Assembly (NCBI GenBank): GCA_020628095.1
Contig: JAHDFP010000005.1
Span: 186,001 to 250,000 of the forward strand
Length of the DNA stretch: 64,000 nucleotides
Reading direction: 5' to 3'
From: Saprospiraceae bacterium
GTDB taxonomy: Bacteria > Bacteroidota > Bacteroidia > Chitinophagales > Saprospiraceae
Shown: positions 37,087 to 54,222 of the stretch, one piece after another
How positions within the stretch are numbered: the first letter of the stretch is position 1
Layout: each line of letters begins with the position of its first letter
Notes under the pieces: generated by a model
Database searches by the model: none
Seen by the model: the letters and a program-made list of their open reading frames with translations, nothing else
Told to the model about the DNA's origin: nothing
Made by a program: the position numbers and the translations under genes

Positions 37087-38019
37087 ATGGAATTATCCGC
37101 TATACAGGAGAGAATACGAGAGACCTTAGAAGAATTTGAAACATTACGTAATGTAGACCAACACCTACTGGACCTAGAGGCTGAACTGAAGGAATCTTAT
37201 GATAAGTTAAGAGCACTGGACAAGGTGTTAGATAAGGAACTAAAGGACATAGAAAGTCTCGAAAAATTAGGCGTCAAATCCTTATTCCTGAAAACCTTGG
37301 GGAATAAAGAAAAGCAACTAGAAAAAGAAAGACAGGACTATCTGGAGGCATCTCTCAAGTATAAAGACCTGAAACAAAGTGTCGAATTGTTGGAGTTCGA
37401 AAGGGATGTACTCAAAAAGAAAACAAATAGACTTCCTGTTATCAAAAAGGAACTGGAGCAACTCAAAGAATCACGCAAAGCAGAAATTCTTGCCAGAAAA
37501 GATAGCGCCATCTATAACGAACTCAAAGAAATCCTTCATCTGTCAGATGTCGCCGTAATGCTTAACAAAGAACTGGTAGAAGCGATAGAAGAAGGTGAAA
37601 AATCAATGACCTTACTGGCCCAGTTAGCTCGATATCTGGAAGGTGTAAGAGAGTGGGGGACATGGAATACGGGAGGACGGCGTGGCATGCATCGCAGTGG
37701 AGCAGACAAGGCGCTAAGACACATGAGTAAGACACAGCAGCAACTTAACTCATTTACTAGAGAGTTAAGAGATCTGGGAGAAAACAATATCGTCTTTAAG
37801 CTGGATATGTCTCATTTCAAAAAGTTCTCTAACTTTTTCTTTGATAACTTGATATCAGACTGGATTATAATGCAACGGATCAAATCAACACTAAATAATA
37901 TAGAATCCACTTACGCGCATGTCCATAGAATTGTGTTAAGTCTAAAAAAAGAAAAAACAGATAATCAGCAAAAAATGATTTTTCATAAAAGCAAAATAGA
38001 CAACTTACTCATGCGCTAA
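37087..38019 (+). CDS. Coiled-coil protein of unknown function
   Basis: 310 residues, almost entirely helical and charged. Heptads are dense over about 1-165 (LLDLEAELKESYDKLRALDKV). There is a conserved-looking central island GVREWGTWNTGGRRGMHRSG (about 188-207) and a C-terminal helical part. No signal peptide or membrane segment. Followed after 36 bp by another unknown helical gene, so the two may form one operon. No family recognised. Confidence 0.75.
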   Translation: MELSAIQERIRETLEEFETLRNVDQHLLDLEAELKESYDKLRALDKVLDKELKDIESLEKLGVKSLFLKTLGNKEKQLEKERQDYLEASLKYKDLKQSVELLEFERDVLKKKTNRLPVIKKELEQLKESRKAEILARKDSAIYNELKEILHLSDVAVMLNKELVEAIEEGEKSMTLLAQLARYLEGVREWGTWNTGGRRGMHRSGADKALRHMSKTQQQLNSFTRELRDLGENNIVFKLDMSHFKKFSNFFFDNLISDWIIMQRIKSTLNNIESTYAHVHRIVLSLKKEKTDNQQKMIFHKSKIDNLLMR

Positions 38020-38055
38020 TGTGATGAGTACCTTAAAAAAAAGAAGTAAAGAGTT

Positions 38056-38808
38056 ATGGAAGATAAAATCAAAGAGCTATTCGAACTAAGGAAAATACCT
38101 AATCTACTCAAGTATTTCGATAAAGAAGATAGGAAATGGCTCTATAGCAAATTAGTCAGGATACAATCCAGAATATACGATCTAGACCATTATCTGGAGA
38201 CTAATTGGGAACTAAAAGAAAAGAAGCTCAATAAACTGTGGAGCAAAATATATGGAGAGTTCCGCATACTCAATATCAGCACGGAGGAAACAGAAAAAAT
38301 GACAGCGCATATCCGCAAATATCAACTGCACGAAGCACAACTCCGAGAAGGAAAGCTACCCACAAGACTCAAGATGGAGTACTACTATTATTATAAGTCT
38401 TGCGATGTGCGACTGATGAGACAGCTCTTATATACTCTTAACGACGAGATAGATAATGAGTATACGCTTGCGGATTGGCGATACTTTGATCTGATAACTG
38501 AGTTCTATGATGACATAGAGGATGTCTACGAGGATCAAAAGTCCATCAATGGGAATTACTTTATGATTAGTATCAAGCAAATAGGAATAGGGAAGACCTA
38601 CAAACTTTTCTCAGAAGAACTGAATAATTATAAAAACAAAGCTAAAAACAGATTTAACAGATCCAATAAGAAGGGTAAAGCTCAAATACTGAAATGGACG
38701 ATCAAGTCTGCACAAGAAACTCAAGCATTACTGGATAAGAGAAAGAAAAAAATTGCAAAAAAGCCCATCAAAAAAGAGCCGTTATTATTCAAATTAATAA
38801 CTGATTAG
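38056..38808 (+). CDS. Helical basic protein of unknown function
   Basis: 250 residues, rich in Lys, Glu and Tyr, with a very basic C-terminus (LDKRKKKIAKKPIKKEPLL). No membrane segment or known motif. The only partner in view is the coiled-coil gene just upstream on the same strand. It ends the core segment: the next gene start is about 500 bp away. Confidence 0.72.
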   Translation: MEDKIKELFELRKIPNLLKYFDKEDRKWLYSKLVRIQSRIYDLDHYLETNWELKEKKLNKLWSKIYGEFRILNISTEETEKMTAHIRKYQLHEAQLREGKLPTRLKMEYYYYYKSCDVRLMRQLLYTLNDEIDNEYTLADWRYFDLITEFYDDIEDVYEDQKSINGNYFMISIKQIGIGKTYKLFSEELNNYKNKAKNRFNRSNKKGKAQILKWTIKSAQETQALLDKRKKKIAKKPIKKEPLLFKLITD

Positions 38809-38870
38809 AAGATTTTCAATGAATTTGTATTTCTATTTGTCGGTATACGACAAAAAAGTCCTGATGTTAG

Positions 38871-38901
38871 TTGAAAATAAATAAAGAATACTTTATGTTT
38901 G
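38871..38901 (+). promoter_or_regulatory. Promoter of small RNA copy 1
   Basis: TTG at 38871-38873, 20-bp spacer, then TATGTTTG at 38894-38901, an exact TAnnTTTG box. The repeat that forms the small RNA starts five bases later. Confidence 0.7.
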
Positions 38902-38905
38902 TGTC

Positions 38906-38967
38906 ACTAATGGAAGTTGTTCTATAATGATTGGCTAGTGTCGGTGTCTACTGACACTAGTTTTTTT
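38906..38967 (+). ncRNA. Candidate small RNA, tandem copy 1
   Basis: About 60 nt between a full promoter and a terminator. A 27-nt unpaired 5' part (ACTAATGGAAGTTGTTC...) precedes a perfect 8-bp hairpin CTAGTGTC/GACACTAG (38935-38942 with 38953-38960, 10-nt loop) and seven Ts. It holds no open reading frame. The second copy 168 bp downstream differs by one loop base and two extra Ts, while the DNA between the copies is unrelated, so the transcribed part and the promoter spacing are what is conserved. Confidence 0.65.
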
Positions 38968-39037
38968 ATTTACACTAATTTTAACGTTCACGAACTACTC
39001 TTCGCTTCCTCCTCTCAAAAAATATTTTTTCTAAAGT

Positions 39038-39069
39038 TTGGTTTTTTAAAACTAATAGTATTATATTTG
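39038..39069 (+). promoter_or_regulatory. Promoter of small RNA copy 2
   Basis: TTG at 39038-39040, 21-bp spacer, TATATTTG at 39062-39069 (exact TAnnTTTG). The distance from the box to the repeat (4 nt) is the same as in copy 1. Confidence 0.7.
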
Positions 39070-39073
39070 AACT

Positions 39074-39137
39074 ACTAATGGAAGTTGTTCTATAATGATT
39101 GGCTAGTGTCGGTATCTACTGACACTAGTTTTTTTTT
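39074..39137 (+). ncRNA. Candidate small RNA, tandem copy 2
   Basis: Same sequence as copy 1 except G to A in the hairpin loop and a nine-base T-run. Hairpin arms are 39103-39110 and 39121-39128. The identity continues for eight bases beyond the T-run (ATTTACAC), which marks a recent duplication of about 70 bp. Confidence 0.65.
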
Positions 39138-39192
39138 ATTTACACCTATCCTAACTTCTCATTTTCTCGCCATCTTCTTTATTTCTTTTACA

Positions 39193-39295
39193 TAGTTAAG
39201 GCTTAATTCATATACTGGCAATGTAATTTTCAACATAAATTATATGCCGTATACCAGAAACATATAACTTTATACTATATGTAACACCTTAACTA
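39193..39295 (+). promoter_or_regulatory. Possible structured leader (three nested stems)
   Basis: Outer stem TAGTTAAGG (39193-39201) with CCTTAACTA (39287-39295) encloses two further stems: 39211-39220 with 39245-39253 (TATACTGGCA / TGCCGTATA, one bulged base) and 39260-39266 with 39276-39282 (ACATATA / TATATGT). This makes a three-way junction 12 bp before the original ATG of the disrupted gene. AT-rich sequence makes chance pairing possible. Confidence 0.35.
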
Positions 39296-39307
39296 TTAGC
39301 TCTATAC

Positions 39308-39340
39308 ATGAGAGAAATTATATCTTCTATTATAAAAAAT
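39308..39340 (+). pseudogene. First 11 codons of the gene split by the transposon
   Basis: ATG at 39308 opens MREIISSIIKN and runs into the left target duplication (39333-39340). If the transposon and one duplication are removed, the frame joins exactly to 42815 (YNSHFRNDTSDLIV...). This gives a 454-residue protein with no stop. Confidence 0.85.
39333..39340 (+). repeat. Target site duplication, left copy
   Basis: TAAAAAAT, identical to 42807-42814; 8 bp is the length produced by IS1595-family transposition. Confidence 0.9.
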
Positions 39341-39368
39341 GGCAGTGATATATCTGTGTAACCCAAAA
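39341..39368 (+). repeat. Left terminal inverted repeat
   Basis: Starts GGCAGTGATATATCTGTG and ends in CCCAAAA; pairs with 42779-42806 with one mismatch at the fifth base. Confidence 0.92.
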
Positions 39369-39576
39369 TTAGATTAGTTTTTTATCAATTTACACGTCTC
39401 CGAAATTCTGAAAATGTTAGTAATGAAGTAAAAGCTGTTAGTAACCTCAAATATCACTTAAGTAATCCTTAATAAACATTCTACATAAATGCCTAATTAG
39501 CAATACATTTCTCTTCGTTTTCCCTTACCAAATTTCGATACCTACTTCACGAATTATTATTAACATGCAGTTAATA

Positions 39577-39747
39577 ATTACAAAGACGTATTAAAATTAA
39601 TCCTAATAAGAAATGCGTACCTTTGTAATGCCTTATGGGGTATAAAAAATGCCCCCGAGTTAGTGGCTCGAAGGCATATTATTTTACAACATCTTTGCAG
39701 ATGAGTTTGTCTCTTTACACAGATTGAGTCAAAGACAATGCAAAGAT
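39577..39747 (+). promoter_or_regulatory. Promoter and structured leader of the BRO gene
   Basis: An exact -7 box TACCTTTG (39618-39625) lies in the right arm of a 9-bp inverted repeat ATTACAAAG (39577-39585) / CTTTGTAAT (39621-39629), a likely operator. Downstream, ATGCC (39648-39652) pairs with GGCAT (39673-39677) around an inner CGAG/CTCG stem. A further hairpin joins ATCTTTGCA (39691-39699) plus TTGTCT (39707-39712) to AGACAA and TGCAAAGAT (39733-39747). The start of the BRO gene is 17 bp later. No open frame lies in 39369-39764. Confidence 0.5.
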
Positions 39748-39764
39748 ACTAAACTTATACATAG

Positions 39765-40544
39765 ATGAAAGACGAAAGAAAAGTATCTTTAAACAAATTC
39801 ACCTTTCCGAATGACTCGGAATCCCACATTATTAGAACTGTTAACATTGATGGCGTAGTTTGGTTTGTCGCCAAAGATTTACTTGACGCTTTGAGCTTAA
39901 CAAATACGACTGAATCTACAAAATCACTTGATGAGGACGAAAAGCTGTATTCAGTAATACTGAACGCAGGTCAAAAAAGGAATACTTTATTTGTTTCAGA
40001 AAGCGGCATGTATGCCTTGATATTCAAAAGCAGAAAACCTATAGCTAAGAAGTTCCGTAAGTGGGTAACATCAGATGTTTTGCCTAAGATTAGGAAAACG
40101 GGAAGTTATAGTTCTACCCCTCAATTGGGCAAATGTTTAAGAAGAATGGTTCTAAACGCCAACAGAACAGACGCAGGGTATTTTAGTGTAATACAAGAAA
40201 TGTATAACACTATTTACATTAGGCTTGAAGCCGAAGGATATATTATGCCTGACGCAACTTTAGATGGAACTGAATTAAGACCTGACGTAAGTATAGGACG
40301 TGGATTTGCCAATTATTTAAGAGATTATTATCCAAGTCTGAAGACACATTTTAAAACCTATAAGCACCATTTTCTCAATGGCGTAATCGTCGATGCAAGG
40401 CAATATCCAGATGAACATTTAGTCTTATTTAGAGAATATGCACTTAATGTTTGGTTGCCAGAAAAGGGGATGGATTATTTTAAAGATAGAGACCCTAAGG
40501 CATTGGATTACTTACCAAGACTGCTATCTAAAAAAGCTAGCTAA
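39765..40544 (+). CDS. BRO-N / phage antirepressor-like protein (transposon cargo)
   Basis: 259 residues. Residues about 15-115 form a BRO-N domain (VWFVAKDLLDALSLTNTTESTKSL, LFVSESGMYALIFKSRKPIAKKFRKWVTSDVLPKIRKTGSY), found in phage antirepressors and baculovirus BRO proteins, usually DNA-binding. The C-terminal part (FANYLRDYYPSL...VWLPEKGMDYFKDRDPKALDYLPRLL) is a less known domain typical of such proteins in Bacteroidota. It is the first cargo gene and may regulate the element; inverted repeats around its promoter fit self-regulation. Confidence 0.85.
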   Translation: MKDERKVSLNKFTFPNDSESHIIRTVNIDGVVWFVAKDLLDALSLTNTTESTKSLDEDEKLYSVILNAGQKRNTLFVSESGMYALIFKSRKPIAKKFRKWVTSDVLPKIRKTGSYSSTPQLGKCLRRMVLNANRTDAGYFSVIQEMYNTIYIRLEAEGYIMPDATLDGTELRPDVSIGRGFANYLRDYYPSLKTHFKTYKHHFLNGVIVDARQYPDEHLVLFREYALNVWLPEKGMDYFKDRDPKALDYLPRLLSKKAS

Positions 40545-40599
40545 ACACAAAAATTTAACACATTTTAGACTAATTATGTAAGATATGTTTTGCTTTAAA

Positions 40600-40615
40600 G
40601 TAAGATATATCTTAC
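40600..40615 (+). promoter_or_regulatory. Palindromic operator candidate before the transposase
   Basis: Perfect 16-bp palindrome GTAAGATATATCTTAC, 25 bp before the transposase ATG. A half site GTAAGATAT lies at 40578-40586. A near copy is found before the lipoprotein gene (41823-41838). Confidence 0.5.
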
Positions 40616-40640
40616 ATTTATATCGTAATTCGTAGCTAAT

Positions 40641-41582
40641 ATGTGTAAATCAAGACAGATCAGGGACTTCGATTCATTGTTTGAATTAATCTCATACTTT
40701 GACACAGAAGAAAAATGTGTTGACCATCTTATCAAGTGGAGATGGAACGGAGAACCTACGTGTCCATATTGCGCTTCTAAAAAGGTAGGTGAATTAAAAG
40801 GAAAGACTAAAAGGTATAAGTGTTACGGATGCAGAAAGCAGTTTGGTATTCGTGTTGGCACTATCTTCCATGACTCTAAACTTTCATTAAGAAAGTGGTT
40901 TATTGCGATCTTCATTTTTACTGCACATAAGAGAGGGATTAGCTCTCACCAGTTAGCAAGGGATTTGTCTATAACGCAAAAGACGGCTTGGTTTGTACTT
41001 CATAGAATCAGAGAGGTTTTTAAATCAGAAAGACCTACTTTATTTGGTGAGGTGGAAATAGATGAAACTTACATCGGTGGTAAAGAAAAGAACAAACACG
41101 CCAATAAGAGAACTAAAGGAACGCAGGGCAGATCAACGAAAACAAAAACGCCTGTAGTTGGAATTATAGAAAGAGGTGGAAAAGTTTACGCATTGCCAGT
41201 TAAAAAGGTCAATGAAGAGGTTTTGACGGCTTTAGTTAACACTACTGTAGCAACTGGTACAAAAATCTATACAGACGAATTTAGAGCCTATAGAGCCTTA
41301 GATAAATCATTTGAAAGAGAGGTCGTAAATCACGGTGCAGGGGAATATGTCAGAGGTAACGCGCACACAAATAGTATTGAAAACTTTTGGTCTCACTTTA
41401 GCAGAACGATTATAGGAACTTATTTTAAAATTTCAAATCATCATTTATCATCTTACGTTAATGAATTTTCATATAGATATAACAATAGAGATTTATCCGA
41501 TGGAAGTAGATTTGACATAACTTTAGCGAATGCCGAAAAAAGACTCACATACAAAGAACTCATTGGAAGAAAATCTGCGTAA
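40641..41582 (+). CDS. IS1595-family transposase (ISXO2-like DDE)
   Basis: 313 residues. An N-terminal zinc ribbon (CPYC at about 34-37 and CYGC) is followed by an HTH (RDLSITQKTAWFVLHRIR) and the DDE core: Asp in VEIDETYIGG, Asp in IYTDEFRAYRAL, and Asn/Glu in NSIENFWSHF. It cuts and joins the element's ends, generating 8-bp duplications as observed at 39333 and 42807. No frameshift or stop; it should be active. Confidence 0.95.
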   Translation: MCKSRQIRDFDSLFELISYFDTEEKCVDHLIKWRWNGEPTCPYCASKKVGELKGKTKRYKCYGCRKQFGIRVGTIFHDSKLSLRKWFIAIFIFTAHKRGISSHQLARDLSITQKTAWFVLHRIREVFKSERPTLFGEVEIDETYIGGKEKNKHANKRTKGTQGRSTKTKTPVVGIIERGGKVYALPVKKVNEEVLTALVNTTVATGTKIYTDEFRAYRALDKSFEREVVNHGAGEYVRGNAHTNSIENFWSHFSRTIIGTYFKISNHHLSSYVNEFSYRYNNRDLSDGSRFDITLANAEKRLTYKELIGRKSA

Positions 41583-41817
41583 GAATTACCCGAATGATCT
41601 AAGGCTGGAAGGTGGCTTTAATGCTCAATTAGATAAAGCCATCGAAAAGAACACTTTAGACATAAAGCAGATCAAAAAGGAATTGGGAATTACTAATGCT
41701 GACATAGCGGACGCCTTTGGCTATAAAAATGAAGCATCATACCGTAATGCAAAAGAAGGTAAGAAAAGGCTTGAGCGTGGGATAGAATGGTTATATGGAC
41801 TAATTATTGATAAATGA
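41530..41817 (+). CDS. Small HTH-like protein overlapping the transposase end (transposon cargo)
   Basis: 95 residues. The C-terminal half IKKELGITNADIADAFGYKNEASYRNAKEGKKRLERGIEWLY reads like a helix-turn-helix (ITNADIADAFGYKNEASY). The ATG at 41530 lies 53 bases inside the transposase gene in another frame; a shorter product from within is possible but no other ATG is well placed. The GTAAG palindromes flanking this gene (40600, 41823) are candidate binding sites, suggesting it regulates the transposase and cargo. Confidence 0.7.
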   Translation: MPKKDSHTKNSLEENLRKNYPNDLRLEGGFNAQLDKAIEKNTLDIKQIKKELGITNADIADAFGYKNEASYRNAKEGKKRLERGIEWLYGLIIDK

Positions 41818-41822
41818 ACTAA

Positions 41823-41838
41823 GTAAGGTATTTCTTAC
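41823..41838 (+). promoter_or_regulatory. Palindromic operator candidate before the cargo lipoprotein
   Basis: GTAAGGTATTTCTTAC, 14 of 16 bases as in 40600-40615, three bases before the lipoprotein ATG, so binding here would block translation or transcription start. Confidence 0.45.
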
Positions 41839-41841
41839 GTT

Positions 41842-42072
41842 ATGATAATAAAAACATTACTTTTCTATATATTTATAGTAGGATGCGCCACAATGGAAGA
41901 ATACAAAAACAATATTATAGACTTTGACAAAGCAATAGCCTCTAAAGAAGGTAGCCTGTCTTGGGATATTGATACATTCTTTAAAAGGCCCTCCGTTCAG
42001 GAACAAATAGAGGAAATAGACAAAATAGACCTCTCTCCACGTTCTGAAAAACCTACCAAACCAAGGGACTAA
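41842..42072 (+). CDS. Small lipoprotein (transposon cargo)
   Basis: 76 residues with lipobox FIVGC (Cys15) after a short hydrophobic stretch, then an acidic mature part (IDFDKAIASKEGSLSWDIDTFF) and a Lys/Pro C-terminus. It ends 6 bp before the membrane-protein gene. No family recognised. Confidence 0.65.
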   Translation: MIIKTLLFYIFIVGCATMEEYKNNIIDFDKAIASKEGSLSWDIDTFFKRPSVQEQIEEIDKIDLSPRSEKPTKPRD

Positions 42073-42078
42073 TCCTTT

Positions 42079-42774
42079 ATGCCTTCATGGAACTTTCTAA
42101 TCATACCTGTAGTTGCAGGCTACTATATAATAACGAGGTGCAAGCTCTACAAATTCAAGCAACAAAGATTAGATAAACAACGTCTGATATTCGATAGTAT
42201 ATTTTATGGGATTATGCTGTTGGTTCTTACCTTTTTTGCTAAAAACTTATTGTGCAAAATAAGTTTTATTAACGATTGGGTCACCAACCTACACAGCTTG
42301 CTTCCGATTAAAGAAAATCATTTTGGGACTACGTGTTTTAGTTTTGCTTTTGCCTTGATTTACGTATGGTTTTTCAACAAAAGAAAAAGTGATAATGAAG
42401 AAATCACAAAGGCAATTTACGAAATAGGTAGTGAATTAGAAAAGATGCTAATGGAGTCTTTCTGGAAGTCAATACCACTGCAATTCACCTTAGATACTGG
42501 GAAGGTTTACATTGCTATGGTTACAAAATTGCCAATTCCAATTATTACTAATTACATAAAAGTAATACCACTGCTTAGTGGATTTAGAGGAGAGGATAAG
42601 TCGTTACTATTAACAACAAAGTATACAACTGTATACAAGCAGTATTTTGGGAAAAACATAACAGAGGCAATTAAGCATAACGACTTGGCACTAATAATAA
42701 CGTTAGACAATATTGTTAGTGTTTCATACTTTAATTCAGGACTTTATAACCAGTTTAAAAAAGAGTATTTATAA
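42079..42774 (+). CDS. Integral membrane protein of unknown function (transposon cargo)
   Basis: 231 residues with three hydrophobic segments: about 5-20 (FLIIPVVAGYYIITR), 38-56 (LIFDSIFYGIMLLVLTFFA) and 87-103. The C-terminal half is soluble, with strands such as LALIITLDNIVSVSYF. It forms a pair with the lipoprotein gene and ends 4 bp before the right inverted repeat, so it is the last gene of the element. Not recognised; a lipoprotein plus membrane protein suggests an envelope function. Confidence 0.7.
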   Translation: MPSWNFLIIPVVAGYYIITRCKLYKFKQQRLDKQRLIFDSIFYGIMLLVLTFFAKNLLCKISFINDWVTNLHSLLPIKENHFGTTCFSFAFALIYVWFFNKRKSDNEEITKAIYEIGSELEKMLMESFWKSIPLQFTLDTGKVYIAMVTKLPIPIITNYIKVIPLLSGFRGEDKSLLLTTKYTTVYKQYFGKNITEAIKHNDLALIITLDNIVSVSYFNSGLYNQFKKEYL

Positions 42775-42778
42775 TATT

Positions 42779-42806
42779 TTTTGGGTTACACAGATATATC
42801 ATTGCC
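42779..42806 (+). repeat. Right terminal inverted repeat
   Basis: Reverse complement begins GGCAATGATATATCTGTG and matches the left end at 27 of 28 positions. Confidence 0.92.
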
Positions 42807-42814
42807 TAAAAAAT
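42807..42814 (+). repeat. Target site duplication, right copy
   Basis: TAAAAAAT, identical to 39333-39340. Confidence 0.9.
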
Positions 42815-44146
42815 TATAATTCGCATTTCCGCAATGACACCTCAGATCTAATAGTCAATAATCTTCCATCCAAGCAAAAAGAACTATTTGATCTAATAGG
42901 AGAGGGCAAATCAGAGAGATATGTTGCTAAGAAGTTGTACAATTCTATACCATCTAGTCAGAACTACCAGCAACTACAGAAGCGTTTGTTTCCTAAGTTG
43001 ATAGATGTTGTTAATACTATTAAGGGGGTTGATAATTATGATAGAATTAGATTTAAGCTCTGGAAGCAAATGCTTTCCGTAAGAATATACAGAAACCTTG
43101 GTTTGCGGAGTGCAGCAATTGATTTGGCATTAAAATCTTTCAAAACCGCATATAAGTATAAACTTTGGTATGACTTAATATACTTATCTAGAACACTGGC
43201 AATACATTATACATTATATGATGTTGATAATGAGAAGTCTAGTTACTATAAGAAGATTGGCCTGAAGGCTCACCGATTGAATCGATTAGAAACCGAAATT
43301 GAATTACAAAGAGCTAAGATTCTAAGAGTTATAAATGACAAACGCACCTCTTCAATTACTTTATTAAAAAAGGAACTCGCAACACTTGCAGGCAAAATGG
43401 AAATAGAATCGCCTAGAGCGGAAATGAACTACTTTATGGCTCTATTAGAATTATATAAATTCGATCAAGATCATGTTAAGTTCGAAAAGACATTGAAAGA
43501 GGCATATAATTTTAATCATCACTTGGATTTCGGAAGTAGCACTTTTCTAAGTATGCTGAATTACTCAAAGGCAGAATACTTAATAAAAGTTGGCAGACTA
43601 AATGAATCTGAACATTATCTGAAGGACTTAATCTCTAAAAGCGACAAGAAAAGAACCTACTACGACACATATATTGAATTTTATTTTAAGTGTTTAATGC
43701 TAAATGAGAAATTCCTTAGTGCTAAGGAAGAATTACTTTTCATGATTAAACTTGAAAAAAAGAAGAAATTCAAAATAAGACAGGACAGGATTGAGGTCTA
43801 TAAAGTATTCTCAGATTTATCTCTATACAAAGAACCAAATATCAAGAAAGCCAAAAGAGCAATTTCGGGGCCTTTAGATAAATTATATATCCAAATTCCC
43901 TTGAAAGTAGCAGAAGTATGTATCACCTATAACCAAACTAATGACAAATTCATAGATCAAATAGAATCCTTGAAGCAATATATGTCTAAGAATCTCAAAG
44001 ACCTTCCAAGAACGAAACAATTCTTCTATGCACTGATACAAACGGCTCAGGGACAAAAAGTAGATCCGCAATCTCTAAAGGGATTACCTGCCGAAGAAGA
44101 AATTATCGCTTATGATAAGCTTTATGAGATCGTTACCAGAACATAA
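42815..44146 (+). pseudogene. TPR-like helical protein, main part, separated from its start by the transposon
   Basis: 443 residues starting YNSHFRNDTSDLIVNNLPSKQKELFDLIGEGKSERYVAKKLYNS. The rest is repeated helix pairs with Leu/Lys/Tyr periodicity (about 90-420), a TPR-like solenoid. The original start is at 39308. In the present DNA the frame is also open into the transposon, where ATG 42713 would give a product with 34 foreign residues, so a chimeric protein may still be made. Nothing else in the body is damaged. Function unknown. Confidence 0.75.
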
Positions 44147-44646: not shown

Positions 44647-45900
44647 ATGCCAACAAGATTTGTAATAGCACCGTCGGGAAAGATTCAAATGAAACATGAA
44701 TACTTAGGTAATGGTAAGAACAAAAATTCATGGACATTACCATACCATGTTCAGAAAAAGTATTGGGATAAGTCTAAAGGTAGACTTAAAGAAAACACGA
44801 GGAATAAAGAAAGGGATGAAGAACATAGGAACATTAATGATATTCTGACAGCCAAAGAACGGCAACTAACCAAGATAGAACAGATACTATATGAGTCTGT
44901 ACGTGTAAGTAAACAGAACATACGTGATGCCTATGATGAAGGTGTTGGATTGGAACGTGATGTACCCTATTTCAGGGATGAATTGGAGATGTGGATTAAA
45001 AATGAAGCAGAGATAAACGCATACCAGCGTATGTTGGATAAAGATTATGAACCACATATCTATTGGGGTGAGCGTACAGGACTTCTAAAGTTTCTTAAAA
45101 AAGGCATTAAGGATAAAGCAATTGAAGATATTGACACCATATATGTTAGGATGATACAGGAGGAATTAAAGACCACACCACGCATTTTATATTGTCCTAA
45201 GAAGAAACATTCACTGATGTACAGTAAATCCACTCAGATAGCTTATTTCGGTGCATTTAAGCGATTTCTGGATGAATGTTACGTCAAATACAAAATAGAT
45301 AAGAATAGCCGTATGTTCTACGCACCTAAAATTAAAGCCCCCGTACTGCAACACGTCGCTTTTACCAACGATGAAGTAGATTTACTTTGGAATGCAAAGC
45401 TCGAAGGTAAGGAAGATTATCACCGTGATTTGTTACTAATCCTATGTTATACAGGTGCAAGGTATTCAGATGGCTATAAGATGGATTCTAACAACATAAG
45501 TTCTGATATGGAACTCAATTACGTAGTAAAAAAGACTGGTATTGTGGTAAAGTGGAAGATAAGTGTTGATGATAGGATATTCACGTTATTAAATCGTATC
45601 ACTTCGAAAAAGAAGAAACACTATAAGCATAATTGTACCATGAAGCATAACCAAGATGTATTTGATAAGTCACTACCCTCTTTATGTCGTAAGGTTGGAA
45701 TAACATCTGAGGTTAAGGTTTCACAACATGGTGATAATCTAATACCCAAATGTGATTTGGTTGGAACTCACACTGGACGTAGAACATTCATATACCATAA
45801 TATCAAGGATAATGGTATGAGATATGATACTGCACGTGAAATAGTAGGACATCATTCGATTCTAATGACTGAAAGATATGTAAAGAACACTATAAGATAA
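44647..45900 (+). CDS. Tyrosine recombinase / integrase
   Basis: 417 residues with the Bacteroidota phage-integrase layout: an N-terminal arm-binding part (SGKIQMKHEYLGNGK), a SAM-like core-binding domain (about 95-215) and the catalytic domain. Active-site residues: Arg272 in GARYSDGYKM, a Lys in the beta hairpin (VVKKTG), His375 and Arg378 in THTGRRTF, His402 or His403 and the nucleophile Tyr411 in GHHSILMTERY. It should integrate or excise the island to its right. No tRNA gene is adjacent. Confidence 0.93.
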   Translation: MPTRFVIAPSGKIQMKHEYLGNGKNKNSWTLPYHVQKKYWDKSKGRLKENTRNKERDEEHRNINDILTAKERQLTKIEQILYESVRVSKQNIRDAYDEGVGLERDVPYFRDELEMWIKNEAEINAYQRMLDKDYEPHIYWGERTGLLKFLKKGIKDKAIEDIDTIYVRMIQEELKTTPRILYCPKKKHSLMYSKSTQIAYFGAFKRFLDECYVKYKIDKNSRMFYAPKIKAPVLQHVAFTNDEVDLLWNAKLEGKEDYHRDLLLILCYTGARYSDGYKMDSNNISSDMELNYVVKKTGIVVKWKISVDDRIFTLLNRITSKKKKHYKHNCTMKHNQDVFDKSLPSLCRKVGITSEVKVSQHGDNLIPKCDLVGTHTGRRTFIYHNIKDNGMRYDTAREIVGHHSILMTERYVKNTIR

Positions 45901-46010: not shown

Positions 46011-48311
46011 TTACATTATTTTATATACTTTATGACTTACCCCGTTTCGTATCATTGATGTACGTTTAGCATCCACAACAGACATTAGTAACATTGCTCT
46101 GGACGTAGGTTTGGTTATGTCCATTTTCAAATTTAATTCCTTTAATTCCCCGTACAGATTGCGCAATTCTCTATGATTATCCATATAAAATGTGTTCTTC
46201 TTTGGTTTATTATCATTTATAAACTTATCTTCTGATTCAAATGACTTAACCCACTCACTTAGCACCGTTAGGTCACATAATTCAACTGTAAGTGCTGGAT
46301 ACTCATTATATATCCTTTCATAATGATTAGGATTATTGCTTTCTATAAACCTTTGTATTATGTCCTTAATGCATAACCTATTAATATCCTTATTTACATC
46401 AGATTTGCGTCTGACAAGCCCTAATCTATTTTTACGATAAGTACCACCTAATATATCTTCTTTTGTCTGTACGTAGTCTTTTGTTATTAATAGCTTCCTA
46501 AGTTCCTGTTCGGTAAACTCCATTGGTAGGTCATCAATCACCTTATATGTATCCAGCAAATCAATAATGTACTTACGTTGAACCTCTGAATGAATTTGGT
46601 TTAACCAATGCTTATTCTTTTCTCTAAGCTCTGAAATTTTACTATTAATTTCCTTTTTTGTCAAATCAGGAAACTGTTCTTTCAGTTCTTTTCTTAATAT
46701 ACCTCTTGGTTTCCATTCGTATTCCTCAAATTCATGTTCCCAATTGGATTCTCTAAGTATAATGAGTTCGTTAAGGGTTTCCAGCGAAAAGTATTTGTTT
46801 ATCTTCTCTCCTATGTCTCTCTCTATCTCTTTATCCTGTTTAGTTAATCCGTTGCCTTTCGGCATCGGAGTTTCTTCCAATTGTAGATTATCCTCAACAA
46901 TGTTAATAGTATCACCAAATTGACGTATTAGTTCGTTTCTAAGGTTGGTGATTCCAATAACCTTATTAACCATTTCTTTATGTGTATTCTGTGCAGCCAA
47001 CCAATTGGTTATCATACATTCACTATTATCTTCCAAACCATGTGTATAGAATCTTCTGATTGACTCCTTTTCAGTTTCAGTCATGTTATCATTAATAATC
47101 ATATTTACACGTTCCATTCGTCTATCAAAAAGCCTTGATTGCTTATCCACCAATTTTTTTCTGTTCCAGTTGAAATTACCATCATACATCGACTGTAAAC
47201 TATGTGGTGAAAAGTCTGTTTTATAACGTTCACCAAATTCTTCCGATGGTGCAGACTTCTTAATGATTATATGAAGGTCAATTTCCTCTTTTTCTCTGAA
47301 CCTGCCACAGAATTGTTTTAAACCATACACGTTTAGAAAATATTCCTCTGCTACCACATACAGAACCGTTACATCACGTGATGTACGAAAATCAATACTA
47401 TCTTCTGATATAGAAGTCGTTAGAACTATCTTTACTTTTTTATCAAATGATTCTTCATCAGAACCAGCGTTAATAATAAGCTCAAAGTAATCTTCGTGTT
47501 TATGATTTCTGGTTAGTAAAATAGATGATGCATAACCAGATTTACTTTCAATATCTCCTCTAATCTTATTAAGTTCCTTAGTGCTATTAAAAAAAACAAA
47601 TAGTAATGGTATTTCTTCCCCATTATTACTATACCTATTCTTAAAATGATTTCCACAAAAATCAATAATGGTCTGCGAGAAATTACGATTACCCATTTTG
47701 TTGAGGGTTGTATTTATCTTTCTTTTAGCCAACCTTTTGAACTCCACAATATGACTATTTCTAAGAAAAGATTTTTCCATTGTTGCAGAAAGATTCATTA
47801 TAGTCATTGGTGGATGTATTTTTATAATTCTTGATAGCTTCTTTAAATCCTTGTTCTTGTATTGATATAGACACAGAGTATGGATTTCGTCGAAAATCAA
47901 ACTGTAATTCAAACCAAGTTCATTTAGTACAGTTATCACCTGTACAGCATATGCATAGTTAGTTACAATTACCTTATCCTGATAAGAATATTCGAATTCA
48001 CCATTCATTAGTTTTTTAATATCTGGAACAGATACACCTTTTCTGCCACAGAATAAATTGATGTGTTGGTAAGTCCTATTGTCCTTTTCCTGTTTGATGG
48101 TGGTTGTTTCCAACATAACGGTGATATGATTATCACCATGTTCTTCATTTAGCATTTGGAAGATTGGCTTACCATATTCTTTGCTAAAGATTGTGCTGGA
48201 TTTTCCGCTACCCGTTGGTGCTATAAATGTAAGGTTATTGTGTTCCTGTACCGTTTTTTGAATAGTATCGGCAGCTTCGCCAATGTAATTTTTGATTTTT
48301 AATTCTTTCAC
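46011..48311 (-). CDS. DEAD/DEAH-like superfamily 2 helicase of the integrated element
   Basis: 766 residues. SF2 motifs are clear in the first half: Walker A APTGSGKSS (31-39), DEIH (141-144), SAT (175-177), LTTSISEDSIDF (motif V, about 298) and QFCGRFRE (motif VI, 333-340). Residues about 370-766 form a helical, Lys/Glu-rich region without known motifs. It lies tail to tail with the integrase. Such helicases occur in Bacteroidota integrative elements and may serve replication or excision; a defence role is also possible. Confidence 0.82.
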   Translation of the reverse strand: MKELKIKNYIGEAADTIQKTVQEHNNLTFIAPTGSGKSSTIFSKEYGKPIFQMLNEEHGDNHITVMLETTTIKQEKDNRTYQHINLFCGRKGVSVPDIKKLMNGEFEYSYQDKVIVTNYAYAVQVITVLNELGLNYSLIFDEIHTLCLYQYKNKDLKKLSRIIKIHPPMTIMNLSATMEKSFLRNSHIVEFKRLAKRKINTTLNKMGNRNFSQTIIDFCGNHFKNRYSNNGEEIPLLFVFFNSTKELNKIRGDIESKSGYASSILLTRNHKHEDYFELIINAGSDEESFDKKVKIVLTTSISEDSIDFRTSRDVTVLYVVAEEYFLNVYGLKQFCGRFREKEEIDLHIIIKKSAPSEEFGERYKTDFSPHSLQSMYDGNFNWNRKKLVDKQSRLFDRRMERVNMIINDNMTETEKESIRRFYTHGLEDNSECMITNWLAAQNTHKEMVNKVIGITNLRNELIRQFGDTINIVEDNLQLEETPMPKGNGLTKQDKEIERDIGEKINKYFSLETLNELIILRESNWEHEFEEYEWKPRGILRKELKEQFPDLTKKEINSKISELREKNKHWLNQIHSEVQRKYIIDLLDTYKVIDDLPMEFTEQELRKLLITKDYVQTKEDILGGTYRKNRLGLVRRKSDVNKDINRLCIKDIIQRFIESNNPNHYERIYNEYPALTVELCDLTVLSEWVKSFESEDKFINDNKPKKNTFYMDNHRELRNLYGELKELNLKMDITKPTSRAMLLMSVVDAKRTSMIRNGVSHKVYKIM

Positions 48312-49067: not shown

Positions 49068-49283
49068 ATGAATAGGATTAAAGAAGTCTTAGCGCAAAAA
49101 GGATGTTCGCAGACTTGGCTATGTGAAGAACTTGATAAAAGTTACAATATGGTCAATTCATATGTCCAAAACAGGCGACAGCCAAGATTGGAAGTGTTGT
49201 ATGAAATTGCAGAGATTCTGGATGTCGATGTGAAAGATTTAATTGTAAGTAACAGAACGAAAAAAAAGAATAAGCGTAATTGA
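49068..49283 (+). CDS. Xre-family HTH regulator
   Basis: 71 residues, a lone helix-turn-helix: IKEVLAQKGCSQTWLCEELDKSYNMVNSYVQNRRQPRLEVLYEIAEILDVDVKDLI with a Lys-rich tail. Such small proteins act as controllers (C proteins) of restriction-modification genes. The next gene starts inside its stop codon, so it leads the helicase-RhuM-Mod-Res operon and likely controls it through the upstream half sites. Confidence 0.92.
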   Translation: MNRIKEVLAQKGCSQTWLCEELDKSYNMVNSYVQNRRQPRLEVLYEIAEILDVDVKDLIVSNRTKKKNKRN

Positions 49284-52200
49284 ATGAACTAATCAACATA
49301 ATTAACAACAAAGACAGCATCTTAATTGATGAACTGGCGAATCAGATAAAACCAACATCGGAAGTTTACATCGCATGTGACTACGTTACCGCATTTGCTC
49401 TATTTGATTTGTTCAAGGTCATTAAAGAATTATCTGGTCTAAAAGTATTAGTATCTTATCACTCTGATGAAGATGATTTCAGGTTTATCCAAAGTGCCAG
49501 AGAAGGGAAACGGAATCTGAAATTATCCAGAAGATTTAGTGCGGGGAAGGTCATCAAGTTGTTAGAAGAAAAAATAGAAATTAGGTCTGGTAACTTAGGA
49601 CAACAAAACATCATCATTGTCAAGAACGGTGAAAGCTGTACGAACTTTTTTCTGACACCGCAATCTCCTGATAGCATAACATTGGGTACAGTTGCATCTA
49701 CGGATTTGATTATGATAAACGCTATGTCAGATGCGTCAGGTCAATATCTAAGTTTATTTAATCAAGTTTGGGAACAAAGTCCCAATAAACTGAATAGTCA
49801 TGTTGTCAATTTGATTGCTAAAGCGACTAAGGATTATTCGGGGGAAGAAATATACAAATACTGTTTACGTCACATCTTTCAATATTCTACTATTGATGAA
49901 CGGGCAGATGAGAAATTGCAGAAAGTTGGTTTTAAAGATTCTAAGGTATGGGACTTACTTTACAATTTCCAAAAAGATGCGGTCATAGGTGCTATCGAAA
50001 AAATAGAAACTTACGGTGGTTGCATTATTGCTGATTCCGTAGGTCTTGGAAAAACTTTCGAAGCTCTTGCCGTTATCAAGTATTACCAGCTTAGAAATTT
50101 TAGGACACTGGTGCTTGCCCCGAAGAAGTTAAGAGAGAATTGGACAGTGTATCGAATGAACGATAAGCGGAATATCTTATCAGAGGATAGAATGAATTAT
50201 GATGTACTTAATCACACTGACTTATCCAGAGTCAGAGGTAAATCTGGTGACATAGATTTAGAAATGATTAACTGGGGCAACTATGATTTAGTGGTCATAG
50301 ATGAGTCGCATAATTTTAGAAACAACCCCACCAAGAAAGGTATGACCCGCTACAAGCGACTCATGCAAGATGTTATTCAGTCCAACATTCGTACTAAGGT
50401 TTTAATGTTATCTGCGACACCTGTGAATAACAGGATGAATGACCTAAAGAACCAAGTAGCATTTATTACTGAGGGCGATGATGAAGCATTCATATCACAT
50501 GGTATTGAAAGTGTTGGTCAGGTGATGAAAGATGCCCAACGGAAATTTACCCAGTGGTTCAGAGACAGTGACCCAGATGAAGCAGACCTGAATAAATTAA
50601 TGGAGTCGCTGGACGGGGGCTATTTTCGAATATTAGATATGTTGACTATTGCACGGTCACGTAAGCATATCGAAAAATATTACGACACCAGTGATATAGG
50701 CAAGTTCCCCGAACGATTAATTCCTATCACTATCAAACCGAAAATTGATTCCCAAGAACAATTCCGAGACATCGGACAAATCTATGATGAGATAAGCACA
50801 TTAACCTTAGCGTCATATACTCCACTGGCATACGTGAGAGCAGACAAGCGACCAGAGTACGAAGCCAAATATGATATGACCACCAAGACAGGTAGCATAT
50901 TCAAGCAGGTAGATAGAGAGCAGAGTTTGATACATCTGATGCGGGTGAACTTATTGAAGCGTTTGGAAAGTTCTATTCACTCATTTAAGTTGACCACTGA
51001 GAAATTAATTTTCACCATAGAAAAGAATCTACAAAAGGTAGAAAACTATAAGTCCAGTGAATTTGATTATGATGTCAATATCACCGAGATAGATATAGAT
51101 GATACGGAGTTAGAAGATTTGTTAGCTGGTGGTAAGACGAAGGTGCTTATCCAAGACTTAGATATTATCAGATGGCGACAGGACTTACAGAATGATAAAG
51201 ATGTATTGCAACATCTATTATCAAGAATCGAATTGATAGATGTAGACCGAGATGCTAAATTATCTAAGCTCTATGAGTTGGTCACTGGTAAAATTCAGAA
51301 CCCCATCAATGAAGAAAATAAAAAGGTAATTGTCTTTACCGCATTCGCTGATACAGCTAATTATCTCTACAAGAACTTATCAGACAAGTTATCCAAGAAT
51401 CACAAAACTTTCTCTGGGCTGGTGACTGGTGGTGGTACGAATAAGACCAACATGCCTAACTGCCGTACCGACCTGATGTCATTACTCACCAACTTCTCAC
51501 CTATCTCCAAGAGCAGAAATAATATCTATCCAGATGAGACCAATGAGATAGATGTTTTGTTTTGCACTGACTGTATTAGCGAAGGTCAGAACTTACAAGA
51601 TTGTGATTACCTAATCAACTACGACATACATTGGAATCCCGTCAGGATTATACAACGTTTTGGACGTATAGATAGAATAGGTTCTCAGAATGAAAAGATA
51701 CAACTGGTTAATTTCTTCCCGTCAATGGAACTTGACCAGTTTATAGATTTAGTGGCAAGAGTGCAAGGTCGTATGGTGATGCTCGATGTATCTGCAACGG
51801 GGGAAGATAATATCATCTCTAAGAACAGTAAGGAGATGCAAGATTTAGAATATCGTAAACGACAACTAAAACAACTGCAAGACCAAGTAATAGACTTAGA
51901 AGATGTGCAAGGTAATATTTCCATTACAGATTTGACCTTCAATGACTTTAAGATGGACTTGGAGAAGAGTACAGATAATCAACTGGAAGCCATTGATGAT
52001 ATTCCACCTGCTTGTTTCTCTATTGTTCCGACCAATACTGAACACATACGACAAGGCGTTATCTACTGCCTGAAAGACACCAGTGATGATTTTGCTAACC
52101 AATTAAAAAACAACATTCTTTATCCATACTTCTTAGTTTATGTAAGTCATGACGGTACACAGATGGTCAAGGCTTCGCAATCCAAATTAGCACTTGATTA

Positions 52201-52453
52201 CTTCCGTAAACTATGCATGGGCAATCAAAAAATATTTCCAGAATTGATTGCGGAATTTGAAAAAGAAACCAACAGGTGTAAGAAGATGGATAAGTACGTG
52301 AACTTACTTAACCATGCCATAGAAGATATTATCGGTGTTCAAGAGACCATAGGTCTGGACTCATTAGCTACCGTAGGTGGTACTACCTTGTCAGGGAATA
52401 AGGCACTCCAAAAAGAGAACTTAGAATTAATCGCATACTTAATCATACGGTAA
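49280..52453 (+). CDS. SNF2-type helicase with degenerate PLD-like N-terminus, type III RM-associated
   Basis: 1057 residues, TTG start overlapping the regulator stop (TTGA). Residues about 10-190 resemble the phospholipase D-like domain of this helicase group, but the HxK catalytic motif is not visible. The SNF2 core has ADSVGLGKTFEA (about 252-263), DESHNFRN (about 340), LSATPVNN, and VIVFTAFADTANYL with QRFGRIDRIGSQN (about 791). This gene and DUF4391 are known neighbours of type III restriction-modification genes; the accessory role is not established. Confidence 0.88.
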   Translation: MNELINIINNKDSILIDELANQIKPTSEVYIACDYVTAFALFDLFKVIKELSGLKVLVSYHSDEDDFRFIQSAREGKRNLKLSRRFSAGKVIKLLEEKIEIRSGNLGQQNIIIVKNGESCTNFFLTPQSPDSITLGTVASTDLIMINAMSDASGQYLSLFNQVWEQSPNKLNSHVVNLIAKATKDYSGEEIYKYCLRHIFQYSTIDERADEKLQKVGFKDSKVWDLLYNFQKDAVIGAIEKIETYGGCIIADSVGLGKTFEALAVIKYYQLRNFRTLVLAPKKLRENWTVYRMNDKRNILSEDRMNYDVLNHTDLSRVRGKSGDIDLEMINWGNYDLVVIDESHNFRNNPTKKGMTRYKRLMQDVIQSNIRTKVLMLSATPVNNRMNDLKNQVAFITEGDDEAFISHGIESVGQVMKDAQRKFTQWFRDSDPDEADLNKLMESLDGGYFRILDMLTIARSRKHIEKYYDTSDIGKFPERLIPITIKPKIDSQEQFRDIGQIYDEISTLTLASYTPLAYVRADKRPEYEAKYDMTTKTGSIFKQVDREQSLIHLMRVNLLKRLESSIHSFKLTTEKLIFTIEKNLQKVENYKSSEFDYDVNITEIDIDDTELEDLLAGGKTKVLIQDLDIIRWRQDLQNDKDVLQHLLSRIELIDVDRDAKLSKLYELVTGKIQNPINEENKKVIVFTAFADTANYLYKNLSDKLSKNHKTFSGLVTGGGTNKTNMPNCRTDLMSLLTNFSPISKSRNNIYPDETNEIDVLFCTDCISEGQNLQDCDYLINYDIHWNPVRIIQRFGRIDRIGSQNEKIQLVNFFPSMELDQFIDLVARVQGRMVMLDVSATGEDNIISKNSKEMQDLEYRKRQLKQLQDQVIDLEDVQGNISITDLTFNDFKMDLEKSTDNQLEAIDDIPPACFSIVPTNTEHIRQGVIYCLKDTSDDFANQLKNNILYPYFLVYVSHDGTQMVKASQSKLALDYFRKLCMGNQKIFPELIAEFEKETNRCKKMDKYVNLLNHAIEDIIGVQETIGLDSLATVGGTTLSGNKALQKENLELIAYLIIR

Positions 52454-53220
52454 TGGGCTGGGACATCATCAACATATTGTCGCCCCCCGAAAAGAGTCTA
52501 CTCCAACGTAGATTGACGAAAGTATTTTTTACAAAAAACTTCCAACTCAAAGCAGGGGAAAAACGACTGCTGAACAATAATATAAAATCAATGCAATGGT
52601 TAGCCAGTCTAAAACCAGCGACTTGTAATGTTGCTGCATCTATGACAGATGAATATGCTTTTGATGAGATACAGATTTTTACAGTACAACTGGATGATAG
52701 TGACTTTGAAAAACAATGCAAGGCAGTATCAGAATTTATTCAACGTCATGTGCCATATCAAATATTGATGGTCATAGAATCAGAAAACCAATTAGCATTT
52801 TCTACTACGGATAAACGCATCAATCAATCTGATAAGTCCAAACGAACCATAGAATCCTTTTATCATACACCAGCCATTAATAAACTTTATAAGCGAGATG
52901 TAGATTCATCATTCACAGATGCTTTACATTTTAGACAGGTGCAAAAAGATTCATTAGCTACCGTGTATCAGTCCTATATCAATGCTATTATCCAATATCA
53001 GGCTGCATGTATCACAGGTACTTACATTACTCATGACCATAAGAGAACCACAGAGGATATGGCGGTGCTGAAAGAAATACAAAACATAGAAACAGAAATC
53101 ATTAGCCTGAAAAGTCAGCTAAAGAAGGAATCCCAATTTAATCGAAAGATGGAGAAGAATGTGGAGCTGCAAAAGAAGAAAAACCATATTGAAGAACTTA
53201 AAGCTAAGTTGTCCCTATGA
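52453..53220 (+). CDS. DUF4391 protein
   Basis: 255 residues. The opening LQRRLTKVFFTKNFQLKAGEKRLLNNNIKSMQWLASLKPAT and the IFTVQLDDSDF...VPYQILMVIESENQLAFS segment match DUF4391, regularly found between a helicase and type III Mod/Res genes. The C-terminus is a coiled coil (about 205-255). Its ATG overlaps the final base of the helicase stop codon and its stop overlaps the RhuM gene by 4 bases, so all are one operon. Confidence 0.85.
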   Translation: MGWDIINILSPPEKSLLQRRLTKVFFTKNFQLKAGEKRLLNNNIKSMQWLASLKPATCNVAASMTDEYAFDEIQIFTVQLDDSDFEKQCKAVSEFIQRHVPYQILMVIESENQLAFSTTDKRINQSDKSKRTIESFYHTPAINKLYKRDVDSSFTDALHFRQVQKDSLATVYQSYINAIIQYQAACITGTYITHDHKRTTEDMAVLKEIQNIETEIISLKSQLKKESQFNRKMEKNVELQKKKNHIEELKAKLSL

Positions 53221-54221: not shown

Positions 54222-54222
54222 T

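Follow-up and report, generated by a model that had tools for sequence, protein, structure and literature searches.

An IS1595-family transposon of a Saprospiraceae bacterium with a putative self-repressing core and a BRO-N/BstA fusion among its exchangeable cargo

Structure of the element and its insertion site

The window considered here is a stretch of 64,000 nucleotides (nt) from a Saprospiraceae bacterium (Bacteroidota; contig JAHDFP010000005.1 of assembly GCA_020628095.1, positions 186,001 to 250,000), and it contains, at positions 39341-42806, a complete transposon of about 3.5 kb belonging to the IS1595 family of insertion sequences. Between its 28-bp inverted ends the element codes for a DDE transposase, a short helix-turn-helix (HTH)-like protein, and three passengers: a protein that joins a BRO-N domain to a C-terminal domain homologous to that of the prophage protein BstA, a lipoprotein-like protein, and a membrane protein (Table 1).

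Table 1. Features of the transposon and of the gene it interrupts (window coordinates).
Feature	Position	Strand	Details and basis
Left terminal inverted repeat	39341..39368	+	28 nt; 27/28 (96%) complementary to 42779-42806
Right terminal inverted repeat	42779..42806	-	Partner of left arm, 27/28
Target duplication, left copy TAAAAAAT	39333..39340	.	Sequence reading and end search
Target duplication, right copy TAAAAAAT	42807..42814	.	Sequence reading and end search
Host gene	39308..44146	+	454 amino acids (aa) without the element, cut after codon 11; flank joining, distant homologues
Possible promoter box TACCTTTG and structured leader	39618..39677	+	Box 39618-39625; leader 39628-39677 (stem, two inner hairpins)
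Passenger 1, BRO-N/BstA fusion	39765..40544	+	259 aa; BRO-N (aa 23-107) and BstA C-terminal domain (aa 121-254); profile and direct matches
Probable operator region	40578..40615	.	Perfect palindrome GTAAGATATATCTTAC 40600-40615; degenerate copy (13/16) 40578-40593
IS1595-family DDE transposase	40641..41582	+	313 aa; Pfam and NCBIfam profiles; D141, D212, E247
Core gene 2, HTH-like	41530..41817	+	95 aa; homologues in Saprospiraceae loci; 53-nt overlap with transposase
Second operator-like palindrome	41823..41838	.	14/16; before the lipoprotein-like reading frame
Passenger 2, lipoprotein-like	41842..42072	+	76 aa; signal ...IVGC (by eye); reading-frame list
Passenger 3, membrane protein	42079..42774	+	231 aa; family phrog_3630 (8.8e-22)

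The transposase matches the profiles DDE_Tnp_IS1595 (1.9e-43), Zn_ribbon_IS1595 (1.9e-10) and NCBIfam IS1595 (1.3e-60), and its D-D-E triad is intact, the three residues being invariant across 45/45 aligned transposases; this check, like the transposase tree described below, is confined to sequences of at least 281 aa. The element combines the Zn-ribbon and DDE domains, inverted ends starting with GG and the 8-bp target duplication of the IS1595 family; its three passengers lie between the ends, and close relatives whose ends are good either lack them or have other genes in their place, as is expected of the cargo-bearing type named tIS. An earlier note, made from the sequence of the window alone, had proposed the family, both boundaries, the intact transposase, the 8-bp duplication directly outside both ends, the positions of the open reading frames (ORFs) and the existence of passenger genes, all of which are borne out. 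The element is complete and probably still mobile. A recent jump, also proposed there, agrees with the perfect duplication and with a host gene that is open apart from the insertion; the event cannot be dated. A prophage remnant was considered and rejected, as the ORFs include no phage structural gene; Rfam gave no match within window positions 38000-44000.

The insertion lies near the start of a host gene. When the flanks were joined in a script with a single copy of TAAAAAAT, the 454-aa frame was restored, reading MREIISSIIKN before and YNSHFRND after the junction; in the present state, the downstream part of the gene is called as an ORF from a TTG within the element. Distant homologues (20-30% identity) occur in 8/14 same-genus genomes, the own genome included. 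Of eight same-genus homologue loci that were translated, four (L088, L089, L091, L095) start at a comparable place; for L090 a different ORF was chosen by the script, while L092-L094 are too distant for the comparison of starts. The same flanks were not recovered in any relative among the same-genus genomes: because the homologues are only 20-30% identical, there is no empty site at the nucleotide level, and the restored frame was used instead. Thus, the earlier note's demand that an empty site match one copy of the duplication is satisfied at the protein level, whereas no nucleotide-level counterpart was found.

The own genome contains a single full copy of the element, so that the search for further copies suggested in the earlier note yielded none; one different IS1595 element is present elsewhere. 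The latter (contig C23, L018 2655-4703) is 2,049 bp long, belongs to the same clade, has 8/8 duplications, and carries an HTH gene and a 140-aa ORF common to L018 and L030.

Related elements and exchange of their cargo

A transposase search of genome contigs found 63 related loci (designated L with a number), which together with those from whole-genome searches gave 68 loci for the end search. A candidate pair of ends was found in 66 and passed the filter in 46; two loci had no candidate ends and 20 failed, with two of the latter (L060 and L078) retained manually in the cargo list. Of the filtered elements, 39/46 are flanked by a target duplication that matches at 7/8 positions or better and 37/46 by a perfect one, and all 39 duplications are more A+T-rich than their own locus (mean 89% vs 55%). 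A chance inverted repeat at the ends of the window element was rejected on these counts.

The filtered elements span 1,529-5,604 bp, while the transposase needs about 1 kb; cargo is therefore the rule in this part of the IS1595 family. The earlier note was correct that the passengers are real; it regarded this particular cargo as unusual for a family whose known cargo-bearing groups carry other genes. Cargo is also exchanged. L031 and L035 share 90% nucleotide identity over 1,282 nt of transposase and HTH gene, as well as their ends, but differ in cargo; similarly, the window element has only the transposase-HTH block and the ends in common with L024 and L025, and additionally the BRO-N/BstA gene, 50% identical, with L026.

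The cargo scan covered 106 of 117 ORFs of at least 85 aa, the 11 left out belonging to L066 (seven), L067 (three) and L070 (one). Defence families are more frequent among the recognizable cargo than among flanking ORFs matched for length. PADLOC assigned the 106 cargo ORFs to 213 families and 106 length-matched flanking ORFs to 21, each with at most two members; among the cargo, BstA has five members, mads_2 four, and the type IIG and type II methyltransferase models up to three. With Pfam, the cargo matched 37 families, the 25 listed being led by P63C, DUF3800, DNA methylases, Bro-N and SocA_Panacea and also including DarT, Macro, MvaI_BcnI, Vsr and Methylase_S; the flanks matched 117 families, and among the 25 listed these are mostly metabolic or regulatory, with PIN in three ORFs.

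The HTH-like core gene and its predicted operator

Homologues of the HTH-like ORF follow the transposase in 14/14 Saprospiraceae loci examined, i.e., nine bounded elements and five unbounded loci (L020, L027, L028, L029, L040), and in 0/8 other Bacteroidota loci tested (L032, L033, L034, L036, L037, L038, L039, L064). Since it is retained behind the transposase in all of these Saprospiraceae loci while the remaining cargo swaps, sequence comparison identifies it as a core gene and not a passenger; the number of passengers is accordingly three, and not the four given in the earlier note. In 7/9 bounded elements the gene and the transposase overlap, the shared stretch being 53 or 35 nt long, the transposase of L077 being broken, and the eight bounded HTH elements included in the transposase tree form a single clade (support 100/99). 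In the structure model, helices occupy residues 45-93, with confidence (pLDDT) mostly of 82-91.

Within 110 nt before the transposase, 8/9 HTH elements contain a palindrome of 16 nt in which 7-8 of the 8 positions pair, compared with 3/37 others (Fisher 5e-6); elements with less than 40 nt before the transposase were excluded from this count, many of the 37 have a shorter upstream region, and against only the 12 others having the full 110 nt the comparison is with 3/12 (p 0.008). In the ninth HTH element, L035, the start is called too far upstream and a palindrome precedes the likely true start. The sequence of the palindrome varies by subclade: GTAAGATATATCTTAC is found in the window element and L024, ATAAGATATGTCTTAT in L025, ATAAGTATATGCTTAT in L026, ATAGGCAATTGCCTAT in L018 and ATATGCAATTGCATAT in L030. 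Judged by eye, most palindromes are flanked by a TTGC/TTGA box on one side and a TAnnTTTG-like box on the other; together these boxes make up the Bacteroidota promoter pattern. In the 64 kb of the window, three operator-like sites with up to three mismatches were found against 0.63 expected, all of them within the element and one being the source of the pattern. This arrangement suggests that the HTH protein is probably a repressor of the transposase operon, which would also repress its own synthesis.

The BRO-N/BstA fusion and the other passengers

The front half of passenger 1 matches PF02498 (BRO-N; 6.4e-23), as recognized in the earlier note, which had missed that it is fused to a BstA C-terminal domain. 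The latter region matches phrog_6287 (1.1e-19) and the PADLOC BstA model (4.1e-10), and the C-terminal 137 aa are 27.9% identical to BstA of phage BTP1 (E 1e-5). Ten residues (R127, F140, S141, G158, D174, S176, G178, H201, Y214, Y238) are identical in nine aligned proteins that differ in their front halves.

BstA is described as a prophage abortive-infection protein whose front half is KilA-N-like, with the boundary between the domains placed near residue 155 and the C-terminal domain at about residues 156-307 of the BTP1 protein; it inhibits phage DNA replication, self-immunity is provided by a DNA element named aba, and 15/72 homologues were classed as prophage-independent (PMC8585504). The window protein and BTP1 BstA are alike in the homologous C-terminal domain, in a DNA-binding type of front half and in being carried by a mobile element, but the front half is BRO-N instead of KilA-N-like and the carrier is a transposon, not a prophage; for this difference at the N-terminus, the protein is classed as a BRO-N/BstA-C fusion rather than as BstA. 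With the phage anti-repressors of the Ant/BRO-N type (phrog_130, phrog_245) it shares BRO-N, over aa 11-119, but differs in its BstA-like C-terminal half. On viral contigs the fusion protein has matches at eight loci, seven of them over roughly the BRO-N part alone.

The RNA upstream of the gene (39600-39770) is predicted to fold with z = -4.17, and none of 200 shuffles was equally stable; the structured leader could be regulatory, and is a lead only. It lies upstream of the gene, and its position therefore disagrees with that of BTP1 aba, which spans the start codon according to PMC8585504. Hairpins were also seen about 105-200 nt before the starts of BRO-N or KilA-N/BstA genes in L026, L103, L122, L159, L160, L161 and L164, several directly following a promoter-like box; no hairpin was found upstream of the homologue L165.

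Passenger 2 has no convincing family match among Pfam, phrog, PADLOC and NCBIfam profiles. Distant homologues of passenger 3 are found in six phage records, including Peduoviridae phages; in both records opened the gene lies behind a replication gene, and in one of them two genes from a gene for a SEFIR-domain protein.

BstA-family genes beside other IS1595 transposases

Full-length BstA genes (PADLOC E 1.7e-117 to 3.0e-116) overlap the transposase in three elements of other lineages (L058, L082, L083), and a P63C-type relative does so, by 8 nt, in four more (L042, L048, L056, L060). Across these seven elements the overlap is 4-11 nt; duplications are 8/8 in six of them and 5/8 in L060. In genome G125 there are four copies (L118-L121) of a 1,904-bp element consisting only of the transposase and a KilA-N/BstA gene, with 8/8 duplications in three and 5/8 in one. 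The ORF that overlaps the end of the transposase in L052 (897-1775) and L071 (997-1923; element coordinates) belongs to another family of about 300 aa, cluster c8, and is possibly a further type of partner.

The BstA domain was also searched for without regard to the transposase, in five sets of genomes: the class of G083 (385), the own class (395), the class of G073 (369), the order of G125 (299) and the own phylum (395); in the class of G073 it occurs in 0/369 genomes. Without G000 and G083, which had already come to light through their transposase, there were 20 genomes with matches, two of which (G101, G1365) start at a contig edge, leaving 18 evaluable. An IS1595 transposase lies within about 1.5 kb of the BstA domain in 4/18 (G125, G1352, G288, G1262). 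By a rough estimate that assumes one or two IS1595 elements per 4-Mb genome, chance adjacency should be well below 1%. On the transposase tree the distribution of BstA needs five changes, at least four of them forced by supported branches.

Other BRO-N or KilA-N/BstA genes were viewed in their surroundings in eight regions, of which seven are from plasmids and one is from a phage record; four of these (L160, L161, L163, L164) have a methylase, restriction-type or antiphage gene nearby; in one of the four, the Entomospira plasmid L161, an IS1595 transposase lies about 1.1 kb from the BstA-like gene. The ends searched for around the Entomospira and G1352 transposases were not found. Three plasmid regions with homologues of the L058 BstA list no transposase nearby, and one is within a phage-like stretch.

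Neighbourhood of the element

To the right of the interrupted gene, the translations resemble, by eye, a tyrosine recombinase (ORF 44647-45900) and a helicase (ORF 46011-48311), and positions 49280-56100 contain large ORFs resembling a defence island with helicase, RhuM and DNA methyltransferase; the methyltransferase-like reading seems to be divided between an ORF ending at 55437 and one starting at 55540. To the left of the element there is a 75-nt direct repeat (38893-38967 and 39061-39135), its copies being 92% identical at a distance of 168 nt, that includes a hairpin and a T-run.

Discussion

The IS1595 family was reportedly defined by Siguier et al. in 2009. Its members are described as usually having a single transposase gene, and 8-bp duplications are a feature of the family; the subgroups are ISPna2, ISH4, IS1016, IS1595, ISSod11, ISNwi1 and ISNha5, and GG ends are stated for Merlin (PMC8101967); the end search found GG ends also in relatives of the window element. 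Cargo-bearing members are already known: in PMC5704250, tISCpe8 appears in a title as a lincomycin-resistance element and MTnSag1 as a small mobilizable transposon. The window element resembles IS1595 and tIS elements such as these in its Zn-ribbon and DDE_Tnp_IS1595 domains, its GG-ended repeats of about 25-28 bp, its 8-bp A+T-rich duplication and its possession of passengers, and differs from them in its cargo and in having an HTH gene that overlaps the transposase, together with a palindrome in the promoter. What is provisionally new is the HTH core gene with its predicted operator and the connection with BstA. In the open-access literature searched, BstA-like genes are nowhere reported to recur as partners of IS1595, and the search gave no paper in which BstA, transposase and KilA-N occur together, and none on IS1595 elements with defence cargo; subscription papers are mostly outside this search, and novelty is to that extent provisional. 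A term search of PMC8585504 returned no IS1595, and 'transpos' once, within a reference.

The explanation that best accounts for these data, and which is fairly probable, is that of a mobile IS1595 transposon with a self-repressing core and exchangeable cargo, here a BstA-like phage defence. The core consists of the transposase and the overlapping HTH-like gene within the ends of about 28 bp; the HTH protein most likely binds the palindrome in the transposase promoter, keeping the synthesis of both proteins low, and the second palindrome stands ahead of the lipoprotein/membrane pair. Around this core the cargo is exchanged. The fusion protein most likely acts like BstA: its DNA-binding front half would guide the conserved C-terminal domain to foreign DNA in the course of replication and so block that replication, and the transposon would repay its host with defence against phages. 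The sequences show directly how the element is built, that it has entered a gene, that the C-terminal domain is homologous to BstA, that BstA-family genes stand beside transposases in other elements and that cargo is swapped; repression by the HTH protein, antiphage activity and a role for the membrane pair are inferred from them.

Alternatively, the BRO-N/BstA protein may serve the transposon itself in the control of transposition, for instance by sensing replicating phage or plasmid DNA and steering or timing the jump. The short overlaps of BstA and P63C genes with the transposase, the G125 element reduced to these two genes in four copies, and the recurrence of the pairing on the tree agree with such a role. 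Prophages use the same domain for exclusion. However, in the window element and L026 the gene is placed upstream of the transposase and of the operator region, and L024 and L025, which lack it, have good ends and 8/8 duplications, so that it is not needed for movement; a role of this kind appears rather unlikely. An ordinary IS1595 element that has picked up phage-like genes, such as an anti-repressor-type BRO gene and a moron membrane protein, with no selected function for the host, is more improbable still. Phages frequently carry BRO-N proteins (passenger 1 has matches in 1,074 phage records), and 13 of the 20 cargo ORFs scanned singly, mostly from Bacteroidota, have no Pfam family, but the C-terminal domain is specifically BstA-like and recurs in independent elements, the cargo frames are open, and the recognizable cargo is biased to defence families in comparison with the flanks. 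Very little probability is given to the passengers being an anti-defence or toxin-antitoxin-like module that stabilizes the element: toxin-antitoxin-type cargo is found elsewhere (DUF433 in L077; DarT, Macro and SocA_Panacea in the cargo set), but passengers 1-3 have no significant match to a toxin or antitoxin family.

Several observations weigh against the explanation as a self-repressing, defence-carrying transposon. As regards the link with BstA, 14/18 evaluable genomes have no adjacent transposase (a few loci are short), the transposase of G288 is 32% identical with no ends found, and G1262 is decayed, with transposase fragments at two of three BstA hits; moreover, the transposase tree shows no significant clustering of BstA (134/500 shuffles score equally low), as would follow from gain or loss on several occasions, and the structure model of the fusion protein is poor (pLDDT 58.9) and unfit for a fold search. 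The PADLOC family count overstates the cargo bias, since a single methyltransferase is counted under many models, and the transposase-coupled genes are among the cargo matches to BstA and P63C; the flanks, too, have matches of defence or toxin-antitoxin type (mads_3 at 4.2e-26 and the PIN ORFs), two more of the singly scanned cargo ORFs have only odd matches below threshold, and the bias is carried mainly by elements of other groups, not of Bacteroidota. As regards the repressor, its matches to XRE/lambda-repressor-like profiles are weak (best E 0.015-0.1), and a Foldseek search with its model returned mostly DNA-binding HTH proteins, none of them significant (best E 2.9); the HTH match in L030 is split in two pieces, the palindromes of L025, L026 and L031 are individually non-significant against shuffles (0.09-0.21), and in the whole genome the site is not enriched (four vs three for the reversed control, two mismatches allowed).

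As a tentative generalization, IS1595 transposons of several phyla may carry exchangeable antiphage defence, with BstA-family genes in BRO-N, KilA-N and P63C forms as a recurrent and often transposase-coupled component; the BstA domain would be common to transposons and prophages, with the front half swapped, and the pairing would tie the sensing of replicating foreign DNA both to defence and to transposition. BstA is known from prophages, and the natural fusions with swapped DNA-binding domains, found beside transposases in independent IS1595 elements, allow the action of its C-terminal domain to be tested. The findings suggest that exchangeable defence genes are spread by small transposons that can readily be taken for plain insertion sequences. 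They further suggest that the short ORF which overlaps the transposase gene of one clade is a repressor with a predicted operator, a proposal that is directly testable.

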